IMG/VR virus record: IMGVR_UViG_3300023174_002899
Coordinates: 1-40,615 of that record
Reading direction: 5' to 3' (one strand)
DNA length: 40,615 nucleotides
From: a virus
Position 1 is the stretch's first letter. Each line of letters opens with the position of its first letter. This document shows, in pieces, positions 16,859 through 40,615 of the stretch. A program made the translations under genes and the position numbers. The notes under the pieces are model-generated. The model was given only the letters and a program-made list of their open reading frames with translations, was not told the DNA's origin and did no database searches.

Positions 16859-17074
16859 ATGGAAGAGTTTAAAGAAATATTAAAAGATATTCAGAGCAAA
16901 GAGTCGGAAGATAAAGAGTTTGAAATCTGGCTTGATAACGGGATTGAGCGGGGATGGATAACAGAACCGTTCTGCAATACTCATGACGGAGATCCGTACA
17001 TGACTGAAGAAGAACAACAAGAATGGGAAGATGGTGGGGATCCATGTCAGGTAGTATTCAAAATAAAAGAATAA
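16859..17074 (+). CDS. Small acidic conserved phage protein
   Basis: 71 residues, strongly acidic. The core (ERGWITEPFCNTHDGDPYMTEEE, with WEDGGDPC after it) resembles a short protein found in many actinobacteriophages with a CxTHDG...E-E...DPC pattern; its function is unknown to me. Two Cys and a His could bind metal. No Shine-Dalgarno sequence; a promoter places the transcript start at the ATG. The end overlaps the next gene by 31 bases. Confidence 0.72.
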   Translation: MEEFKEILKDIQSKESEDKEFEIWLDNGIERGWITEPFCNTHDGDPYMTEEEQQEWEDGGDPCQVVFKIKE

Positions 17075-18645: not shown

Positions 18646-18732
18646 ATGCATTCTATATTTTATAAAATTAAATTTTTTTTATGGAAAAAAAAATACAGAA
18701 AAAAAAATAAAAAAAGAAAATATATATATTAA
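18646..18732 (+). CDS. Possible 28-residue lysine-rich peptide gene
   Basis: An ATG at 18646 opens a short frame (MHSIFYKIKFFLWKKKYRKK...) that ends in TAATG overlapping the carbamoyltransferase start at 18732. The peptide would be amphipathic then strongly basic. The stretch is almost pure A/T with poly-A runs, so the frame may be accidental. The exact stop/start overlap is the main argument for a real coupling peptide. Confidence 0.35.
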   Translation: MHSIFYKIKFFLWKKKYRKKNKKRKYIY

Positions 18733-20165
18733 TGATTATTTTAGGAGTTAATGAAACATCTCATGATGCATCTATTTCATTAATTAAAGATGGTAAAATC
18801 TTGTTTGCTGGCCATGCTGAAAGATATAGCAAACAAAAAAATGATTGGTATATTAATAATAATTTAGTAAAAGATGCTTTACAGTATGGCAAGCCAGACT
18901 ACATTGCTTACTATGAAAAGCCATTACTTAAAAAATCAAGGCTATTACTAAAAGGTGGGGCGGGAGACTGGCTTCCAAAATTTAATATAGATAATATTAC
19001 AAGAAAATCTTTTAATCATCACTACTCTCACGCCTGTGCTGGGTACTTTACAAGCAAGTTTGATCATGCAGCAATTGTAGTCCTTGATGCAATAGGAGAA
19101 TATAACACTTCAACAATTTGGGTTGGTGAAGGTGAAAAAATTAAACTTAAGTATAAGCAAAACTATCCAGTTAGTTTTGGACTATTTTATTCTGCCTTTA
19201 CACAACTAATTGGACTTATGCCTAATCAGGAAGAATATATTATGATGGGTATGGCAGCCTACGGAGACTTCACAAAATATTATAAAGAAGTAGATGAATA
19301 CTTTCCAAAATATGATACGCAAAAATATAATTTTCATAAAGGAATTAATGACTGGGGAATGCAAATAACTGAGCAAGACAGATTTGATATTGCTGCAGCA
19401 GTTCAGTTTGTTTATGAACAAAGACTTAATGATTTTATGCGTATGGCCTACAATCTAACTGGCAAGGATAACCTTGTGTTTATGGGTGGTTGCGCTTTAA
19501 ACTCTTCTGCTAATACATTGTTGTGGAATATATTTGGTGATGTTTGGATTATGCCCAATCCAGGCGATGCTGGAAGTTCTTTAGGTGCTGCAGCAGCACT
19601 TTATGGAAAACATATTGAATGGAAAAACCCATACTTAGGTTACGATTTGGGCGGGGAATATCCAATTGACAAAATAATTGAAGGTATATTAAAAGATGGA
19701 ATAGTGGCAGTAGCAACAGGAAGAGCAGAGTATGGTCCAAGAGCATTGGGCAATAGGAGTATCCTTGCTGATGCAAGAGATCCATTAATCAAAAACAAAG
19801 TTAATCTAATTAAACAAAGAGAATTATTTAGACCATTTGCTCCAGTAGTTATGGAAGAGTTTGCAAACAAGTGGTTTGATATGGACTTTGACTCTCCATA
19901 CATGCAGTATACCGTTAAATGTTTGCAGCCTCAAAAAATACCATCAGTAGTACATAGAGACGGAACATCAAGAGTTCAGACTGTAAACAAAGACCAACAT
20001 AGTGGCCTATGGAGGACTTTGAATAAGTTTTACTTACAAACTGGGGTGCCAGTTCTTCTTAATACTAGCCTTAATATTAAAGGACAGCCACTACTAAATG
20101 ATGAAAGTGATATTATTAATTGGGAAAAAGAGTATGATTTTAAAATTTTAAGAGGTGTGATATAA
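18732..20165 (+). CDS. NodU/TobZ-family carbamoyltransferase
   Basis: 477 residues with the family motifs: GVNETSHDASISLI at the N-terminus, HHYSHACAGY (metal and carbamoyl-adenylate site), VVLDAIGE, MGGCALN, and EYGPRALGNRSIL near residue 340. These enzymes make carbamoyl-AMP from carbamoyl phosphate and ATP, then O-carbamoylate an acceptor such as a sugar, antibiotic or, in some phages, possibly a modified base. It is slightly shorter than free-standing NodU (about 550). The acceptor here is unknown; nearby SGNH-like and glycan genes favour a sugar. Homologues occur in T4-like cyanophages. TAATG overlap with a possible small peptide gene. Confidence 0.88.
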   Translation: MIILGVNETSHDASISLIKDGKILFAGHAERYSKQKNDWYINNNLVKDALQYGKPDYIAYYEKPLLKKSRLLLKGGAGDWLPKFNIDNITRKSFNHHYSHACAGYFTSKFDHAAIVVLDAIGEYNTSTIWVGEGEKIKLKYKQNYPVSFGLFYSAFTQLIGLMPNQEEYIMMGMAAYGDFTKYYKEVDEYFPKYDTQKYNFHKGINDWGMQITEQDRFDIAAAVQFVYEQRLNDFMRMAYNLTGKDNLVFMGGCALNSSANTLLWNIFGDVWIMPNPGDAGSSLGAAAALYGKHIEWKNPYLGYDLGGEYPIDKIIEGILKDGIVAVATGRAEYGPRALGNRSILADARDPLIKNKVNLIKQRELFRPFAPVVMEEFANKWFDMDFDSPYMQYTVKCLQPQKIPSVVHRDGTSRVQTVNKDQHSGLWRTLNKFYLQTGVPVLLNTSLNIKGQPLLNDESDIINWEKEYDFKILRGVI

Positions 20166-29373: not shown

Positions 29374-30066
29374 ATGGATTTTGTATATATATGTAAAGAT
29401 GGAGATAATGAAGAGTTAAAGTACTCAATTAGATCCGTTGTATCTTCTTTCCCAGACTCAAACATATGGGTTGTTGGTGGAAAACCAAATTGGTATACAG
29501 GTAACTTTATTCAGGTATCCCAAGTTTTTCATAAATATAGAAACGCTTTTGAAAACTTAAAGGAAATCTCAGAGTCAAAAGATATAAATGAAAATTTTGT
29601 TTTAATGAATGATGATTTTTATATAATGAAACCTTTAACACAAATAGATACTTTTCATGGATTGCCACTGATTGAAAAGGTTGAAATGTATGAAAAATTA
29701 AACGGTAGGTCGCCATATACTAAAAAACTAAGAATGACATATGAAAGATTAATAAAATTAGGTTTCAACGATCCACTTGATTATGAACTACATGTTCCAA
29801 TGCCAATGGAAAAAGAAAAATTAAAAGAAGTATTACTACAAAGAGATACCTTTTTATGGAGATCTGTATATGGAAATATGTTTAATGTTGGTGGTACATA
29901 TATGGAAGATGTTAAGGTTTATTTAAGTGGTGCCTTATTAGCAAAATCTCATAACATTAAAGAAGAAAACTCAATATACTTATCAAGTTCTGACAGTTCT
30001 TCTAGGCATATGATATCTAATATTCTTAAGCCACAATTTAAATCAAAAACTAAATTTGAGAGATAA
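29374..30066 (+). CDS. Stealth/glycosyltransferase-like phage protein
   Basis: 230 residues. The N-terminal half reads YICKDGDNEELKYSIRSV, then NIWVVGGKPNW, then ENFVLMNDDFYIMKPL. The NDDFYIMKP segment matches conserved region 2 of Stealth-type hexose-phosphate transferases and related actinophage glycosyltransferase-like proteins, where the paired Asp bind metal and sugar nucleotide. It probably modifies a surface glycan or virion protein. It lies tail-to-tail with the minus-strand glycan operon, overlapping its last gene by 17 bases, and shares its theme. Confidence 0.72.
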   Translation: MDFVYICKDGDNEELKYSIRSVVSSFPDSNIWVVGGKPNWYTGNFIQVSQVFHKYRNAFENLKEISESKDINENFVLMNDDFYIMKPLTQIDTFHGLPLIEKVEMYEKLNGRSPYTKKLRMTYERLIKLGFNDPLDYELHVPMPMEKEKLKEVLLQRDTFLWRSVYGNMFNVGGTYMEDVKVYLSGALLAKSHNIKEENSIYLSSSDSSSRHMISNILKPQFKSKTKFER

Positions 30067-31087
30067 CTTCTAGCCACTTATCTTTAAGTATACTGTTAGA
30101 GAAATTATTAAATCCTATAGCAAATGCTTTTTCTTTTTCATCCTGTTTATTTGTTAGACTAATATAATTGTCAACGCATAGTGCTAAGTCTTTTCTATTA
30201 GCCTCAAAAAACTCAATTCTAACTTTTGTTCTAAAGGTACCAAGAGATGAAGATTTAACCAACCAATTGGCTGGAAGTATTTCATTGTTTGGAGATATAT
30301 CTGTCATAAAAACGGGGAGTCCAGAAAGCAATGCCTCATTCATAGGTAAACAAAGACCAGCATAACGTCTAGGAAGTATCATAGCGTCAAACCCAGTATA
30401 CATATCTTCTCTATTGTCTGGATTGCCAACCTCAATTGTTAACCTAGAATCCTTTATGTTAGTCTCTACCTCATTTTGACTTCTTATAACTAATTGATAA
30501 TCAGCCTTTGAATACCGCAACATTTCAAGAACTGTATCAGTTCCATTTCTATCTTTTGCTGCCTTTCTACCAGTAATATGTAATATCCTGTTGTGATCCT
30601 TAGACATATTTGTTTCTTTAGCATTAATAAAAGTAACTGGATTAGTTGGTGGTGGCAAGTGCATAACATTTGATCTACTGCCAAAAAGTTTTTTAACATG
30701 GTTTATATTCCAACTGCTAGGTGCTAACAAAACATCTGCGACTGGTAGTTCTGGTGTAGAAAGACTTCCAAAAAGTTCATAGTTATATTGAAGAATTGTT
30801 TTAACGTTTCTTCTTTTAGCATACTTTACAAAATTTTGATCATAAAATGTTTCACAACTTATAACAACATCAAGGTTTTCAAGAAAAGAAACAATTTGTT
30901 CTTTAGTTGGAAAGCCATTTGTTTTAATTGTTTCATATCCTTGATACCATTCTGGATGTTGTTTATTTTTATTAAAGGGGGTTGAGTCAATAAGCATAAC
31001 CTTGCTTGGAGTAAGCATGTTAACTAATTCTCTTGTTTGATTTCCAAGACCAGTGTTATCTGATCTGGCAATAATACCAACTCTCAT
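30050..31087 (-). CDS. GT4-type (GT-B) glycosyltransferase
   Basis: 345 residues. GT-B fold with an N-terminal GxGNQTRELV motif in which the Gly-rich loop lies, a middle RILHITGRKAAKDRNGTD strand that starts the second domain, and the nucleotide-sugar region FDAMILPRRYAGLCLPMNEALLSG, matching the E-x7-E-like signature of GT4 enzymes. It would transfer a sugar from a nucleotide donor. Last gene of the minus-strand glycan operon; its ATG overlaps the upstream stop (ATGA). Confidence 0.85.
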   Translation of the reverse strand: MRVGIIARSDNTGLGNQTRELVNMLTPSKVMLIDSTPFNKNKQHPEWYQGYETIKTNGFPTKEQIVSFLENLDVVISCETFYDQNFVKYAKRRNVKTILQYNYELFGSLSTPELPVADVLLAPSSWNINHVKKLFGSRSNVMHLPPPTNPVTFINAKETNMSKDHNRILHITGRKAAKDRNGTDTVLEMLRYSKADYQLVIRSQNEVETNIKDSRLTIEVGNPDNREDMYTGFDAMILPRRYAGLCLPMNEALLSGLPVFMTDISPNNEILPANWLVKSSSLGTFRTKVRIEFFEANRKDLALCVDNYISLTNKQDEKEKAFAIGFNNFSNSILKDKWLEVISQI

Positions 31088-31845
31088 TGTTTATTAAACC
31101 AAACATCATCATCTGATGTAAATTTTCTTCCACCTTCACGACCATCTAAATGATAAGAGCGTTTAATGTTTCCTTCTGGATGGTATATCCAGAGTTTATG
31201 TTTGTTCCATCCATCTTCAGAAAATTCTCCATTTGGAGAAATATCATCTTGTAATCTTCCATGAGTTTTATCTTCAATAAATGCTTTGTCTTCAAGCGGT
31301 GGAAGTATAATATCTCTATAATATGAAACTTTGCTAAGATGTGGTCTTTGACTCCATTGAGATGTTTTCATAAAACCATCTTCCAATCCAAACATCAAGT
31401 GATTGTGTGATTCTGGGATTGACGCTTCATGATGAAAACGAACTGTATTAGCCTTTTCATATGCAATTAAATCACAACATTTTTGCCAATCAATTTCTGC
31501 ATCTGGCGTAATGGGTGCATCTCCTTCAACATAAAGAATTGCAGATGTTTGAACTTCATCAATAGTATTACGCATCATTGTGCTTTGATGGCTGTGGTTA
31601 TCAAATATTATTGGAAGAACGTTGTTATATTCATGCAAACATTTCCAAAGAATTTTATTCTTATACTCATTATAGTCTTTTTCACGATTCATTTGTTCTT
31701 GTCGTAATCCATCAATCTGCATTATAATTTCATTTTTAGGAAAATGAACTCTAATACATCTAATAGTCTCATCAATAATATGTGTATTTGGATGGCTTGG
31801 CAAAACAGATGTTGCTAAAATAATAGTTATATCATTTTTATTCAT
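31084..31845 (-). CDS. GT-A-like glycosyltransferase
   Basis: 253 residues. ITIILATSVLPSHP at the N-terminus, EIIMQIDGLR, then TSAILYVEGDAPITPD, with EGD taking the place of the DxD metal site, and downstream RFHHEASIP and HGRLQDDIS. This is the pattern of GT-A-fold transferases of the GT2-like group, although divergent. It overlaps both neighbours in the operon (ATGA and eight bases). Confidence 0.68.
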   Translation of the reverse strand: MNKNDITIILATSVLPSHPNTHIIDETIRCIRVHFPKNEIIMQIDGLRQEQMNREKDYNEYKNKILWKCLHEYNNVLPIIFDNHSHQSTMMRNTIDEVQTSAILYVEGDAPITPDAEIDWQKCCDLIAYEKANTVRFHHEASIPESHNHLMFGLEDGFMKTSQWSQRPHLSKVSYYRDIILPPLEDKAFIEDKTHGRLQDDISPNGEFSEDGWNKHKLWIYHPEGNIKRSYHLDGREGGRKFTSDDDVWFNKQ

Positions 31846-32686
31846 TTATTTGCCTCATTAGTTTTATTCCAAGATCTCTTTTATATTTCATCCACCAGCA
31901 TACCACCTTGTGCATGTTGTGAGGGTATTTATTTAATAGTTCAGGAACTAAGTATCTTAACTCAGCCCAAGTAGAAACAAAACTTACAGGAACATTTTCT
32001 TCAAATATAATATTATAAAAATCAATAGAGTCACCTTTTGAATTAATCTTATCTCCTATTGGAAGGCATAACATTTCTATAGCCTCAAAAAATCTAAAGG
32101 TATCTATTGTTACCGCACCAGAAGGGGCTGGAGCAATCCTAGCGTTGGCAAGGTTGCGATAGTAGTCTATTGGCTGATCGCCCTGTGCAAAGCCTGCTGT
32201 GGGCTTAAAAAGGGTGTTTGGCATTGACTGTATGGCCTTTGATAGTTGCTGCCTTCTTGAATGAGTTATTTGACCACCAAAATATAAATCATAATTCTTA
32301 ATAGGATAGTCTGGCATAAACTGCTTTAAATGTTGGGGAACTCCAATAGGTAATTTATTATATTGCTTATTACTTTCATTAGGATACTGAATCCATATTT
32401 CAATGTTAGGATGATTAATCTTTTTTATATCAAATCTACTTTCTTCATCTCCAGTGATGAACAAAAGCACCCTTGATATATTTTGTATTTCTTTATTTAT
32501 ATTTTCTTCATGTCCAAGACTTTGTGGTCCAGGAACAATAACAAAGCCTCTGTCAACTTTTGGAATAGAAGTAACCTTAACCTGATCAATTTCATACTTA
32601 TCAAATACTTCTTTTAATAAACCATAGTCCCATTTGTCATTAGCATAGTCTTTACCATTATGAGAATATAAATAGGCTCTAATCAT
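31838..32686 (-). CDS. Exostosin-like glycosyltransferase
   Basis: About 282 residues from the ATG at 32686 (MIRAYLYSHNGKD), which overlaps the upstream TGA as ATGA; a GTG at 32701 is in frame. The region YDLYFGGQITHSRRQQL followed by RNLANARIAPAPSGA and TFRFFEAIEMLCLPIGD matches the exostosin/GT47-type donor domain (FxGxxxxxxR...R...FxEAxxxGCIPV). Likely transfers a sugar during glycan assembly. Confidence 0.72.
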   Translation of the reverse strand: MIRAYLYSHNGKDYANDKWDYGLLKEVFDKYEIDQVKVTSIPKVDRGFVIVPGPQSLGHEENINKEIQNISRVLLFITGDEESRFDIKKINHPNIEIWIQYPNESNKQYNKLPIGVPQHLKQFMPDYPIKNYDLYFGGQITHSRRQQLSKAIQSMPNTLFKPTAGFAQGDQPIDYYRNLANARIAPAPSGAVTIDTFRFFEAIEMLCLPIGDKINSKGDSIDFYNIIFEENVPVSFVSTWAELRYLVPELLNKYPHNMHKVVCWWMKYKRDLGIKLMRQINE

Positions 32687-33300
32687 TTTAAAATTTTCCA
32701 CAACTTTTCTTCTACAACAAGTTTACCGATTAAATCTTCGTCTATGTATGATGGATTATGTGCATGTGATATCTGTGAGTTGTACATTTTTATTGCATCA
32801 ATTTTATGTTGTGTAAAGTTAATACTAACATTTTCTAAAGTATGGTTTGATTCAAAGATTCTTAATCTTGTTCTATGTAATTCTGGATATAATAATCTAT
32901 ATGGTAACTCAGCATAAACAAAATATGTTTTATTAAAATCTTTCATTAAATTGAATAAAGTATCTGATAAAAAAACATGATCTGGATGATGAATTCCCAA
33001 TGGAATATATACATTGTCAAAATTTATTATAGTATTTTTTATCCAATTAATTAAATCATCTTCATTCTGTTTTCCATAAACATCATCTAATAAGTCTCCA
33101 TTAATAACTTTAGCATTAATCATAGAGCAGGCCTCAAAATGTTCTTGTCTTAATGTACTATGTTTCTTATATCCAATATCATCTGTTGGTATACCAGCAA
33201 ATGCGGATGCAATAGTAAAATTATGATCATTATCAATGATATAATCGCCTAAAGAAAAAATTGCATCGTCTGTGTGTGGAGAAAAAATAAGACTACTCAT
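32683..33300 (-). CDS. PIG-L/LmbE-family deacetylase
   Basis: About 205 residues from the ATG at 33300 (MSSLIFSPHTDD). SPHTDDAIFSLG gives the His9 and Asp11-Asp12 zinc/catalytic residues (P-H-x-D-D), and HHPDHVFLSD supplies the second His pair. Members remove acetyl groups from N-acetylglucosamine-containing molecules; in Actinobacteria the family includes MshB and Mca of mycothiol metabolism. In this operon it probably deacetylates an amino sugar on a glycan. Confidence 0.85.
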   Translation of the reverse strand: MSSLIFSPHTDDAIFSLGDYIIDNDHNFTIASAFAGIPTDDIGYKKHSTLRQEHFEACSMINAKVINGDLLDDVYGKQNEDDLINWIKNTIINFDNVYIPLGIHHPDHVFLSDTLFNLMKDFNKTYFVYAELPYRLLYPELHRTRLRIFESNHTLENVSINFTQHKIDAIKMYNSQISHAHNPSYIDEDLIGKLVVEEKLWKILK

Positions 33301-34000
33301 AAAATAAATGAACCTCATGTTGATAGTCAAGCAGTACTTCTTTGTAACCCAATTCTTTTATCCATTGTCTAAGATTATATAAGTATTCATTCCATTGCTG
33401 TAGCATAAACTCAGGGTGTCCAGATAGCCATATCTTAGGCTTATATTCTTTAAGAACCTTCTCAGCCCCTCCTAAGACTCGCCATTCACTACCCTCTACA
33501 TCTAAAGAAATTGCGGTAGGTGGTTTAATACCGTGATCATAAACACATGAATCTATAGTAATCTGACCATATGAATCACCTTCAAGATATAACTCTTTAA
33601 ATCCATGTGCTGCTATAAGTTCATTATCAACTTCTGGTGGCCATTCGTTATAATAGATACGTGCAAGACTGTTTATTTTATCAGATGCAAATCCAGGAAT
33701 AGATACCATTGGAATTTTTAAATTATTAGCAGACCATGTTATTGGAAAGTGTGACCAGACCTTTGGATTAGGTTCAAATAAAACTACTTCTGCTCCCCAC
33801 ATTTGACATAATGCAGTCATTTCACCTTCTTCTGCACCAACATAATAAATAACATCACCTTTACCAAGATTGTTGTGCATTGATTTAAGCCTTAATTTTT
33901 CCCAACCTGCTTCGCTATGCCATTCTGGTCTATCTGCACGATGTTTTGGAAGAACCATTTCAAACTCTCCGTTTAAAATTGTCTTAATCATTTCTGTCAT
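33293..34000 (-). CDS. FkbM-family methyltransferase
   Basis: 235 residues. Motif I is VIYYVGAEEGEMTALC, followed by EVVLFEPNP (acidic end of strand 2), and the FkbM core PTAISLDVEGSEWRVLGGAEK with KIWLSGHPEFM. FkbM enzymes O-methylate sugars or polyketides with SAM. ATGA overlap upstream and an eight-base overlap downstream, so fully within the operon. Confidence 0.88.
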   Translation of the reverse strand: MTEMIKTILNGEFEMVLPKHRADRPEWHSEAGWEKLRLKSMHNNLGKGDVIYYVGAEEGEMTALCQMWGAEVVLFEPNPKVWSHFPITWSANNLKIPMVSIPGFASDKINSLARIYYNEWPPEVDNELIAAHGFKELYLEGDSYGQITIDSCVYDHGIKPPTAISLDVEGSEWRVLGGAEKVLKEYKPKIWLSGHPEFMLQQWNEYLYNLRQWIKELGYKEVLLDYQHEVHLFYE

Positions 34001-34506
34001 TTCATTGCCTCAACAAAATAAAACTCATGTTCTCTTGTGTCAATTTCGTATATTTTTTCATTTGAATATACTGTTTGTTTAAAGTTTGTTTCAGCAACAT
34101 TATTAAAGCCAACAGCCTGTAATTTATATTGTAACGCCTTGCTTGTTAGTAGCGATGCTGATTGTGAATACCAAGTTAGCCATGCAGAAAATCTTTTATC
34201 TAGATCATCTTCAGAATTAGGGAAAAAATTAATATTATTATTCTTATATGCATCAAACCCAGAGACTATATCTGGAAGGCTAATTCTTACAACTCCACTT
34301 GGTTTTAAAACCCTATAAAATTCTGATAATACCTTTTCAATATTGTGATATTTAACACAACAAATTATTGCATGACAAACAAGAATATCACAAGAGTTGT
34401 CAGTTATTGAACTTAAATCCCTGTGTTCAGTTTTAAATTCTGGATCAAGGTCTATGTTAACCCAATCAGATGGCTGTATACTTCCACATCCAAAGTTTAT
34501 ATTCAT
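33997..34506 (-). CDS. Class I SAM methyltransferase (Methyltransf_11-like)
   Basis: 169 residues. NINFGCGSIQPSDWVNIDLDP is motif I and II of the predicted-SAM-methyltransferase group, then SCDILVCHAIICC (motif post-II), and FYRVLKPSGVVRISLPD. Slightly short compared with the usual 200 or so. The W-VNIDL form is common in glycan-cluster methyltransferases. ATGA overlaps on both sides. Confidence 0.85.
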   Translation of the reverse strand: MNINFGCGSIQPSDWVNIDLDPEFKTEHRDLSSITDNSCDILVCHAIICCVKYHNIEKVLSEFYRVLKPSGVVRISLPDIVSGFDAYKNNNINFFPNSEDDLDKRFSAWLTWYSQSASLLTSKALQYKLQAVGFNNVAETNFKQTVYSNEKIYEIDTREHEFYFVEAMK

Positions 34507-35432
34507 TTGTTTTCCATATAAAAATCAACTATTTCTTTCATTGTGTCTCTCATGGTGTGTTCTGGCTTCCATCCAGTTTTTTCGTGTAGTAAGGATGAAT
34601 TCATAAATTGTTTTTTAATTTCAAAGCCATCACTTTCAACTATCTCATGTCTAACTTTTTTACCAATGACATCTTGTACAATATTAAATACTTCAAGGGT
34701 AGAGTATCTTTCACCAGATGATATATTAAATGATGGAATATTGTTTGTTGTTTCTCCGTATGTAAGTATGTTTGAGTATGCTGATACAACATCTTTAACA
34801 TTTATATACTCTCTGATATCTCTACCAGCATTTCTTATGGTAAACAACACATCGTTTTTATATGCCCTTACAATTCCAGGGATCAATCGTTGAATATTAT
34901 TATCACCAGTTCCATAGATGTTGCATGCACGAGTAGTTATAACAGGCATATTGTAAGTATTCCTATAAGAGTTACAAATGATATCTGTGATTGATTTAGA
35001 GGCATCATATGGATAAACTCCATTTAAAATATGATCTTCAAAGTATTCATCTTTAGTTAATTCACCATATGCTTTATCGCTAGATGCAACAATAATTGAT
35101 TTACATTTTTTGTACTCTCTTAATGATTCAAGAACATTGAGTGTGCCAACTACGTTTGTATAAAAAGTACTGTATGGGTACTTAATTGAGTCATAGGCTT
35201 GTGTTTGTGCTGCAAGATGAATAAAATAATCTGGTCTTGACTTTTCTATAAAGAAATCAATGTCTGTTTTATTATTAATACTTCCATATACCTTGTTTAC
35301 ATTTTTAGAAAGTTCTGTACGGCTATGCTCATCCTTTAATAATACAAAAACATCCCAGCCCAAAGAAAGATAGTGGTTTGATAAATGAGAACCAAGCAGT
35401 CCAGTTGCTCCAGTAATCGCTATGCTCTTCAC
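34503..35432 (-). CDS. NAD-dependent nucleotide-sugar epimerase/dehydratase
   Basis: About 309 residues, extended SDR family. GATGLLGSH is the NAD-binding loop, HLAAQTQAYDS and IIVASSDKAYG follow, and YDASKS carries the catalytic Tyr-x-x-x-Lys. The sequence (SSDKAYG, YDASK, RACNIYGTGD) is closest in feel to CDP-glucose or GDP-mannose 4,6-dehydratases. GTG at 35432 in a TAGTG overlap is the preferred start; upstream in-frame codons lie inside the preceding gene. It would supply an unusual deoxy-sugar donor for the operon's transferases. Confidence 0.88.
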   Translation of the reverse strand: MKSIAITGATGLLGSHLSNHYLSLGWDVFVLLKDEHSRTELSKNVNKVYGSINNKTDIDFFIEKSRPDYFIHLAAQTQAYDSIKYPYSTFYTNVVGTLNVLESLREYKKCKSIIVASSDKAYGELTKDEYFEDHILNGVYPYDASKSITDIICNSYRNTYNMPVITTRACNIYGTGDNNIQRLIPGIVRAYKNDVLFTIRNAGRDIREYINVKDVVSAYSNILTYGETTNNIPSFNISSGERYSTLEVFNIVQDVIGKKVRHEIVESDGFEIKKQFMNSSLLHEKTGWKPEHTMRDTMKEIVDFYMENK

Positions 35433-36388
35433 TATATACCCAACTCTCTGATTATTGCATCCCATCTGTGTACATAGGTATGTTCTTTCTTTGTTCTTTC
35501 ATGCCCACTAACTCTTATGCTTTCTCTTGACACTCCATCAAAAAGATATTGATCTATTTTTGTTTTTAAATCATCAAAGTTTCCATGTTCATAAAAAATA
35601 ATTTCTTTGTTATCTTCAAAATATTCTTCAAGGCCTTTGATGCGAGGGTAAATAGTAAAGCCACCACGACCAGTGCTTTCAAATAGCCTATCACTAGTGT
35701 AGTAAGGATAGTTAAAGTTAATATTAAGACTGTCTCCTATTGCTACCTTGCTTTTTGCGTAGATACGATTTAACGCATCTCCACGAACAGTTCCAGTATC
35801 ACCATCTCCACCAACATGAAGGAATCTTTTGCCATACGTTTTTCTTAAAAATTCTATTAGTTCTGGGCGATATTTATGTTCATGGTGATACCCTTTACTT
35901 CCAACAAATATTACATCATTCTCAAAATTATTAATATCATAATCAGAATGTATATAACATTCTTTATCATAAACACCAGCAGGAATAAAGTGTCCTTTTA
36001 CATTTGTGTTTTCATTAAACCAATTAGCCATCAGTTTATCAACTGTAAAGAAGTGACCAATTGTTTTATAAAAATTATCATTCTCTAAATCTTTTTGTCG
36101 TTCAATTCCAAACCATAAATCAAGATGGTATGTCATGGTAGGAATGCCAGCAGAGTTTGATTGTCTTAGTACTTCATCCATTGGAATTGATCCTGGGGTA
36201 TTCCATCTATGTGTGTGAACCCATATAAATAGGTTTGACTGTAATGCCCTCTTTAATATCTGCTCGCTTGTTGCTTTCTTTTCCTGCAATTTTTCAACGG
36301 TATGTCCAAGAGACTCTAAAGACTTAGCATGGTGATTTTCACTGCTATAAGGAACTTCAAAGTTACCAAGAAAAACTATGTTAGCCAT
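35432..36388 (-). CDS. Glycosyltransferase (GT1/GT4-like, DUF3880-type)
   Basis: 318 residues. N-terminal ANIVFLGNFEVPYSSENHHAKS, a middle TYHLDLWFGIERQ and IGHFFTVDKLMANWF, then VIFVGSKGYHHEHKYRP and the acceptor/donor part DRLFESTGRGGFTIYPRIKGLEEYF, in which GRGGF and the following Glu correspond to the donor site of bacterial glycosyltransferases. First transferase of the operon, starting in a TAATG overlap with the IscA-like gene. Confidence 0.8.
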   Translation of the reverse strand: MANIVFLGNFEVPYSSENHHAKSLESLGHTVEKLQEKKATSEQILKRALQSNLFIWVHTHRWNTPGSIPMDEVLRQSNSAGIPTMTYHLDLWFGIERQKDLENDNFYKTIGHFFTVDKLMANWFNENTNVKGHFIPAGVYDKECYIHSDYDINNFENDVIFVGSKGYHHEHKYRPELIEFLRKTYGKRFLHVGGDGDTGTVRGDALNRIYAKSKVAIGDSLNINFNYPYYTSDRLFESTGRGGFTIYPRIKGLEEYFEDNKEIIFYEHGNFDDLKTKIDQYLFDGVSRESIRVSGHERTKKEHTYVHRWDAIIRELGI

Positions 36389-38225: not shown

Positions 38226-38254
38226 AGTATATCAAGGTTTGGCGATAAAAGCAA
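38226..38254 (-). promoter_or_regulatory. Leaderless-type promoter (TTGCTT-17-TATACT)
   Basis: Minus strand: TTGCTT at 38254-38249, 17 bases, TGA-TATACT with -10 at 38231-38226, then six bases to the ATG at 38219. An AGGTTTG element (plus orientation, 38235-38241) lies inside the spacer, where a repressor could act. Confidence 0.72.
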
Positions 38255-38307
38255 GGCGCAAAATAGGTTTTAAGTTCGGCGAAATATAGAAATATCAAAC
38301 CTCCCTA

Positions 38308-39361: not shown

Positions 39362-39664
39362 TAAGAACCGTATTACCCCTATAAGACATAACCCTATATG
39401 CCAAACCTTGTTTTTGGGATATGCCAGATATCCAGGATATAAAGGTTTGAACCTATGTGCAACTATCTGGTTTGACAATGAGAATATGCACAATATGGAT
39501 CCAGGATGATGGTTTGATACCCTCCCAAAATAGGCTTAGAAGGCTTATTTGATACCTTCTGGAGTGTTTGATAGGATAATTAAATCTTACTGATATTTTT
39601 TAAATATGGTTTTGGTGGAGGAAAGTGGAGTGAAGTGGGTGATTAGGCGCTTTTATAGATGGCG

Positions 39665-39673
39665 TCGTAATGT
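39665..39673 (+). repeat. TCGTAATGT repeat, copy 1
   Basis: First of three exact nonamers in the gene-free region; context GGCG-TCGTAATGT-CCTGG. Confidence 0.6.
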
Positions 39674-39937
39674 CCTGGAGCGCCAAACCTCCTACCATCA
39701 AACCTTCATATTGTCAAACCATCATATCCCGATAGCGGATTATACTACCAAACCTCCTATTTGTCAAACCTTGTATGCTAAAAACCCCTATAAATTTTGT
39801 ACAAAAATGTAGAAAAAATGTAGCAAAATCCAGCAAAAAGAATAGAAAGGTTTGGTATTTATTTAAAAACCAGGAGAAAAGGTTTGATATCTTATAGGGG
39901 GTAATTAGTTGTATCTTTCTGGATCCCCCGCCAAACT

Positions 39938-39985
39938 TTCTGGGATTTTTTGAGGCCCGTCGTAATGTCTAACAGGATAATTAAA
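39938..39985 (+). repeat. Imperfect ~45-base repeat, copy A (contains TCGTAATGT at 39960)
   Basis: Reads TTCTGGGATTTTTT, then GAGGCCCG, the nonamer TCGTAATGT (39960-39968), CTAAC and AGGATAATTAAA. It matches copy B in order and spacing. The AGGATAATTAAA part also occurs at 39573-39584. Confidence 0.6.
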
Positions 39986-40116
39986 ACGCTTTAGGGCGGG
40001 GGATAAAAAGATATGATCGTAATACCTATAGTATAAGATATAAAACCCTATAGCCTGGTATAAAGGTTTGTCGGCTATAAGGTTTGAAAGGTTTGAGATA
40101 TAAAGGTTTGGCATGA

Positions 40117-40162
40117 ATCTGGGAAATTTTTTAGGTCTTCGTAATGTTTTTTTAGGAAAATA
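40117..40162 (+). repeat. Imperfect ~45-base repeat, copy B (contains TCGTAATGT at 40139)
   Basis: Reads ATCTGGGAAATTTTTT, AGGTCT, the nonamer TCGTAATGT (40139-40147), a T-run and AGGAAAATAA, followed directly by AGGTTTG at 40163. Copy A begins 179 bases earlier. Confidence 0.6.
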
Positions 40163-40196
40163 AGGTTTGTACCATATGTCCCTTTTGATATGATTT

Positions 40197-40219
40197 GGGC
40201 CGCCCCGCCGCAGCGGGCC
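40197..40219. other. GC-rich hairpin at the edge of the repeat region
   Basis: CCCGC (40204-40208) and GCGGG (40213-40217) flank a CGCA loop within a block of almost pure G/C, in strong contrast to the AT-rich surroundings. It lies 8 bases beyond the stop of the minus-strand gene at 40228, so it may be its terminator, although no T-run follows. It could also be part of an origin or a packaging site. Confidence 0.45.
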
Positions 40220-40227
40220 TGCAACCG

Positions 40228-40491
40228 CTAGTCTTGAATAGAGTTAAGTAATTCGTCTAGGCTTTCAAACTCTATATCCTCTGCACCTAAAGACGAGATC
40301 AAAAGTTCATACGTTTCATTAACATACACCTCTGATTGTTTTGTTGGCAAAACCAATTCATTCATTAGCAGATAAGCCATTGGCAAACCTAAGTCGTTGT
40401 ACTCTATAAAATCTTTTAATTGGTCGTCATCTCTATAGTTCATCCACAACTCAGCAAGAATAGTTATCTTGTTAGAAAAGTCGTTCGGCAT
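40228..40491 (-). CDS. Acidic hypothetical protein
   Basis: About 87 residues from the ATG at 40491 (MPNDFSNKITIL). Helical and acidic: WMNYRDDDQLKDFIEYND, LGLPMAYLLMNELVLP, ending FESLDELLNSIQD. It resembles short phage proteins of the LxDFIEYNDLGLPLAYL type, which I know only as hypotheticals. It overlaps the partial gene upstream by 20 bases. Confidence 0.75.
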   Translation of the reverse strand: MPNDFSNKITILAELWMNYRDDDQLKDFIEYNDLGLPMAYLLMNELVLPTKQSEVYVNETYELLISSLGAEDIEFESLDELLNSIQD

Positions 40492-40615
40492 AGTATTTAC
40501 CAATCTCTCTGTATTCTGCTACTGTCTTATTATACTCTGTTGCTTCTAATACTTCCAATGCCCTCGCATAAACCACATAAGGCTGAGCAGTTGCTAAATA
40601 TTTTCCTACGGCTTC
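40472..40615 (-). CDS. Hypothetical protein, 5' end beyond the window
   Basis: Only the last 47 codons are visible (ending VAEYREIGKYYAERLF), read from the right edge without a stop. The segment is helical (YARALEVLEATEYNKT). It overlaps the ATG of the acidic protein gene by 20 bases, so the two are probably co-translated. No family can be named from this part. Confidence 0.65.
   Translation of the reverse strand, partial: EAVGKYLATAQPYVVYARALEVLEATEYNKTVAEYREIGKYYAERLF

Follow-up and report, generated by a model that had tools for sequence, protein, structure and literature searches.

A candidate oriC-type replication origin beside a heptad array in a large phage related to Stanwilliamsviridae

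What is the role of the repeat-dense region, rich in the heptamer AGGTTTG, that lies close to the end of the phage DNA studied here (the window, a linear fragment of 40,615 bp that constitutes a whole IMG/VR record)? The window encodes a DNA polymerase III alpha subunit (DnaE), RecA, four tRNAs and sugar-modification enzymes, and its DnaE is 53–56% identical to those of Streptomyces phages, e.g., BillNye (56%) of the family Stanwilliamsviridae. The first-pass annotation of this DNA described the region as gene-free, and this is borne out: the three ORFs of at least 60 aa inside it are broken in relatives by frame-shifting length differences (indels), and it is therefore regarded as non-coding. 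An Rfam scan returned nothing but tRNAs above threshold. Three candidate functions had been proposed, i.e., an origin with iterons, a stoperator-like repressor array and a partition site, among which the origin is best supported, by adenine trios, DnaA boxes in relatives and a conserved array; the accompanying ideas of even spacing on one face and a GC-skew turn do not stand. Motifs, their geometry and conservation, and the direction of the promoter are read directly from the DNA (Table 1). Based on these, the region is probably the replication origin, or one of several, of a large phage related to Stanwilliamsviridae, in which an oriC-type unwinding module is combined with a heptad array that would control the adjoining promoter. 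For the module as a feature of the family the sequence evidence is strong; how it acts in the window phage is less firmly supported.

Table 1. Coordinates of features in the window and of second DnaA-box clusters in relatives
Feature	Position	Strand	Basis or remark
AGGTTTG heptad array, 13 exact copies	39402..40169	both	motif count; conserved in relatives; ladder
Variant heptads TGGTTTG	39468, 39510, 39715		within array
Variant heptad AAGTTTG	39932		within array
Outlying AGGTTTG copies	38235, 38296 (span 38235..38302)	+, -	motif count
Slot of tandem DnaA boxes in relatives; here degenerate heptad GTGTTTGATAG	39564..39581		alignment
CAGTAAGAT, first three DnaA-trio-like triplets	39584..39592	-	alignment of relatives
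AT-rich stretch ATATTTTTTAAATATGG	39593..39609		sequence; AT-rich in relatives too
Three GTGG-based repeats, exact 10-bp period (GTGGAGGAAA GTGGAGTGAA GTGGG)	39615..39639	+	logo of 65 unique sites
TCGTAATGT element 1	39665..39673	+	between promoter and core; retained by nearly all relatives
Perfect sigma-70 promoter TTGACA-17-TATAAT, pointing at core	39739..39767	-	motif scan
TCGTAATGT element 2	39960..39968	+	motif position
TCGTAAT, fourth, shorter copy	40017..40023	+	motif position
TCGTAATGT element 3	40139..40147	+	motif position
Gene for 91-aa acidic helical protein, adjoining array	40228..40503	-	neighbour used to find relatives
Second box cluster, G007 (L179–L182)	33790/33802		
Second box cluster, G005 (L169–L173)	74395/74407		
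Second box cluster, G026	16950–17007		
Second box cluster, G018	79187–79881		
Second box cluster, G028	44466/44490		
Second box cluster, G020	13429/13440		

Related regions were collected through homology to the 91-aa gene, which gave 80 loci, 15 of them with a neighbour protein 69–92% identical to that of the window. The sequence CAGTAAGAT, directly beside the array, is nearly invariant among them, and the best-conserved aligned block as a whole is AAAATATCAGTAAGATTTA on the minus strand. From CAGTAAGAT into the AT-rich stretch, adenine recurs at each third base over about six triplets, with frequencies at successive third positions of the aligned sites of 1.00, 1.00, 1.00, 0.87, 0.83 and 0.81. 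The AT-rich stretch itself is the presumed unwinding element. Read along the minus strand, the module consists of the promoter, TCGTAATGT, three GTGG-type repeats, the AT-rich stretch, the trios and, in most relatives, tandem DnaA boxes. The GTGG repeats are conserved across the family, and we take them to resemble MraZ operators; a phage MraZ was not found in 32 related records. The three TCGTAATGT copies claimed in the first-pass annotation were recovered, together with the shorter fourth one.

In relatives outside the window's clade, tandem DnaA boxes follow right after the conserved block (...TATCAGTAAGATTTATCTGTGGATAAACCTGTGGATAACT...), in most cases at a trio-to-box spacing of usually exactly 5 nt and with perfect tandem boxes 11–12 bp apart. 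Homology of the neighbour gene, with boxes left out of account, gave 47 unique loci; up to 130 nt from their trios perfect boxes show a 143-fold enrichment, and 24 of these loci have one at most 16 nt away. When all aligned loci are pooled, the perfect boxes number 266 in one orientation and none in the other, again mostly spaced by 11–12 bp. The published rule for the basal unwinding system (BUS) of bacterial origins calls for a DnaA box, a spacer of up to 16 and NAN repeated at least three times (PMC8287927). The combination of boxes with adenine at every third base matches this pattern, which supports an oriC-type reading, and the window contributes six NAN triplets from 39584 onward. The tandem TTATCCACA boxes of the relatives at 11–12 bp, the short spacer, the (NAN)6 trios and the AT-rich stretch are thus all features shared with the bacterial BUS. 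Unlike the bacterial element, the module is phage-borne and phage-specific in sequence, with one phage-like match in bacterial genomes; it also adds the heptad array, the TCGTAATGT and GTGG repeats and a promoter directed into the element, and in the window's clade it has no boxes.

Boxes and trios could instead act as a decoy that titrates the host's DnaA, their purpose being to block host initiation and not to launch phage replication, as might be suspected from the tandem perfect boxes in many relatives and from the finding that none of 32 related records contains a recognisable DnaA. Titration would, however, need neither strictly phased trios nor a fixed 5-nt spacer, a single orientation and a promoter into the element, and the window's clade lacks boxes there with which to titrate; we therefore consider a decoy very unlikely.

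The window's clade is a real complication for the origin reading, since to judge from the alignments it has kept the trios and lost the perfect DnaA boxes. In the window, the 16 bp next to the trios contain no DnaA box with up to two mismatches, the nearest such sites being more than 100 nt away, and a DnaA box is likewise missing behind the trios of 16 other AGGTTTG arrays. Many of these box-less arrays carry the heptad-like TATCAAACC in the box slot. With perfect boxes gone and trios retained, loading in this clade must use another route, which may run through boxes of degenerate sequence, a box cluster farther off or the heptad protein. A specific version of the last, in which a phage-encoded protein polymerising on AGGTTTG heptads (8.3–8.4 bp per unit) replaced host DnaA as the loader onto the conserved trios, so that the initiator was swapped and the opening element kept, is rather unlikely. 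Several relatives have a second DnaA-box cluster about 10–12 kb upstream of the module, intergenic where inspected and with no obvious trio element; one of these relatives, G007, belongs to the same clade as the window and has its tandem box pair about 10 kb away. The module therefore need not be the sole or main origin.

The array itself contains 13 exact AGGTTTG copies in 768 bp, as counted before, where about 0.13 are expected, a roughly hundred-fold excess over chance. The whole window holds 22 copies on both strands versus 6.9 ± 2.6 in dinucleotide-preserving shuffles; beyond the array the heptamer is at chance level, so it is not equally dense elsewhere in the window. The two outlying copies at 38.23–38.30 kb and all of the pair spacings given previously (39684/39699, 39749/39765, 39848/39880, 40064/40080 and 40089/40104) are correct, and the reported 45-base imperfect repeat exists, in the form of a 30-nt repeat of 63–73% identity. 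All 15 close relatives (L089–L103) conserve the array directly downstream of the 91-aa gene, with recurring spacings of 8–9, 15–16 and 32 bp, so that copies and spacing both passed the conservation test set in the first-pass annotation. Among 31 mutually diverse arrays, copies of the same orientation form a ladder of 8.3–8.4 bp that extends out to 66 bp (R = 0.50 versus a jittered-null 95% of 0.17). Even spacing on one face is thereby contradicted, R being 0.06 at 10.5 bp.

Other lineages use other heptamers (TGGTTTG, ATGTTTG, TATTTGG and others) while retaining the layout and TCGTAAT, and these variant classes show weak ladder peaks only, on thin data. Because the identity of the heptamer varies by lineage with its layout maintained, we argue for a co-evolving and probably phage-encoded binding protein. 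The ladder is suggestive of a protein array in which each unit takes up about 8 bp, of the sort that ribbon-helix-helix proteins form, and points to an uncharacterised DNA-coating protein.

Arrays of this kind have known counterparts. The met boxes bound by MetJ are 7–8-bp units occupied by a ribbon-helix-helix protein array over promoters. In pSM19035, parS consists of 7–10 heptad units over promoters, and the omega protein, also of the ribbon-helix-helix type, covers 7 bp per unit (PMC9499535). The array in the window is similar to both in having 7–8-bp units over a promoter, and differs in that the units are gapped, stand beside an origin-type module and are accompanied by no detected RHH_1 protein or ParA. 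A partition (centromere) site like that of pSM19035 would fit the asymmetric 7-bp units in both orientations that overlap a promoter. Against this, neither a ParA-type ATPase nor an RHH_1 protein was found in 32 partly incomplete records, the units follow the 8.3–8.4-bp ladder instead of being contiguous at 7 bp, and nothing, an integrase included, was seen that would indicate a plasmid-like prophage, which makes partition highly improbable. Because several of the records are fragments, the lack of a gene family in them is not proof.

Mycobacteriophage L5 stoperators are likewise short, asymmetric, repeated sites in a phage. The array here is by contrast confined to one region, in both orientations and next to oriC-type elements; given the mixed orientation, no dispersal through the window (a fragment), no tyrosine integrase in 32 related records and an HTH_3 protein in only one of them, the stoperator proposal is not supported. 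Iteron plasmid origins (P1, F and RK2) place an array of roughly 20-bp iterons beside DnaA boxes and an AT-rich region, with repeats overlapping a promoter. This arrangement is close to ours, but the 7-bp unit on an 8.3–8.4-bp ladder falls short of the 17–22 bp of iterons.

The promoter is the only 12/12 sigma-70 site between 38.0 and 40.6 kb and occupies the same place in all close relatives. Of 105 unique regions, 57 have a perfect promoter directed toward the core and none a reversed one, as compared with 0.16% in shuffles. One AGGTTTG copy overlaps the -35 element (39765–39771) and a second lies in the spacer (39749–39755), a position also occupied in many relatives. A protein bound at these heptads should therefore compete with RNA polymerase. 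The array might then be no more than a set of operators at which a phage repressor shuts off a strong early promoter, the DnaA-type motifs being secondary. This is consistent with the way heptads in close relatives overlap a perfect promoter at its -35 and spacer, and with heptamers that differ among lineages as repressor specificities do. Yet the best-conserved sequence is the trio element and not the operators, copies reach about 700 bp upstream of the promoter, and the 32 records contain a cI-like (HTH_3) protein in one case only and no tyrosine integrase. An operator function can also coexist with an origin; as an explanation in its own right we find it unlikely.

For the origin reading, DnaA binding, strand opening, the role of the promoter and the heptad protein are what we infer from these motifs. 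Host DnaA would bind the boxes, polymerise onto the trios and open the AT-rich stretch, which would then be handed to the phage's own replisome (DnaE in the window; BillNye, a relative, has annotated genes for helicase, primase and SSB); the presence of DnaE and RecA in the phage, with no DnaA recognised in the 32 related records, fits this. Opening or priming may be aided by transcripts that the strong promoter sends into the element. The heptad protein, bound to AGGTTTG every ~8.3 bp, would coat the array, cover the -35 and spacer, and gate transcription and thereby initiation. If this is correct, large phages of a widespread group, equipped with a DNA polymerase III alpha of their own, use a bacterial-type DnaA-box/DnaA-trio module. 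With boxes present or lost, heptamers changing and trios constant, these phages would form a natural series in which the requirements of the trios and the replacement of an initiator become testable.

No initiator family was recognised in the small ORFs that neighbour the array, nor a Rep gene among the neighbours scanned. The 91-aa ORF has no tblastn match among cultured phages; an AlphaFold model of the protein comprises five helices (pLDDT 90.7), and a fold search with it gave no significant match. Beside it is a second small conserved gene of 77 aa with no family match (91232–91465 in G008), whose window copy (40500–40615, minus strand) is cut by the window end; it is conserved along with the origin region. 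When gene conservation was used to look for the heptad binder, only an HTH_17-like protein of the replication module was singled out, and since it varies so little between heptamer classes it is no obvious match. This very basic protein of 197 aa (G008, 47245–47838, L176; phrog_9440; weak HTH_17 match with E 0.015) is encoded about 5 kb before dnaE, is conserved in most relatives, BillNye included, and is a candidate origin-binding protein.

The module CAGTAAGAT-N3-6-TGTGGATAA is present in at least 120 viral contigs, and among the matches listed the spacer is 5 nt in 74 of 81 modules, so that CAGTAAGAT-N5-TGTGGATAA could serve as a signature to locate candidate origins in uncultured phages. 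When 84,980 genomes of bacteria and archaea were searched with a stricter form, a single match emerged; its contig (CANGYR010000020.1, L228), assigned to a Chitinophagaceae MAG, carries the phage origin with the same neighbour gene and is probably mis-binned phage DNA. The module therefore belongs to phages and does not exactly reproduce any host oriC among those genomes. A blastn search of an origin region against cultured phages gave short chance-level matches only, and a literature search on DnaA-box origins in lytic phages found none with the terms used. In BillNye, TTATCCACA boxes cluster in a gene-poor stretch at ~119150–119780 that also has TTACGAA and GGACAT repeats, the boxes and TTACGAA repeats lying at 119.2–119.5 kb; this cluster, located by motif only, is a candidate origin. 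It resembles the present region in its gene-poor box cluster and TTACGAA repeats, and in a DnaE 56% identical, and differs in having neither the CAGTAAGAT core nor the AGGTTTG array.

The region might also mark a packaging or genome-end site, given that in G013 (L188–L194; 124,540 bp) the candidate origin region is contained in an exact terminal redundancy of 8,517 bp, i.e., a long terminal repeat or an assembly overlap. In most long relatives (G007, G018, G025, G026 and G028) it is interior, and an end site leaves trios, boxes and promoter unexplained; this possibility is extremely improbable.

Cumulative GC skew, suggested earlier as a check, does not turn at the array. Its maximum in the window is near 30 kb, at the switch in gene strand, and in relatives it falls 0.8–16 kb downstream of the module in eight of nine and 38 kb in the ninth; because skew tracks gene orientation, it gives the origin reading no support. 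The minus-strand block at 30050–36388 of the window encodes glycosyltransferases, a sugar epimerase, methyltransferases and a PIG-L family protein, and a carbamoyltransferase gene is located at 18732–20165.
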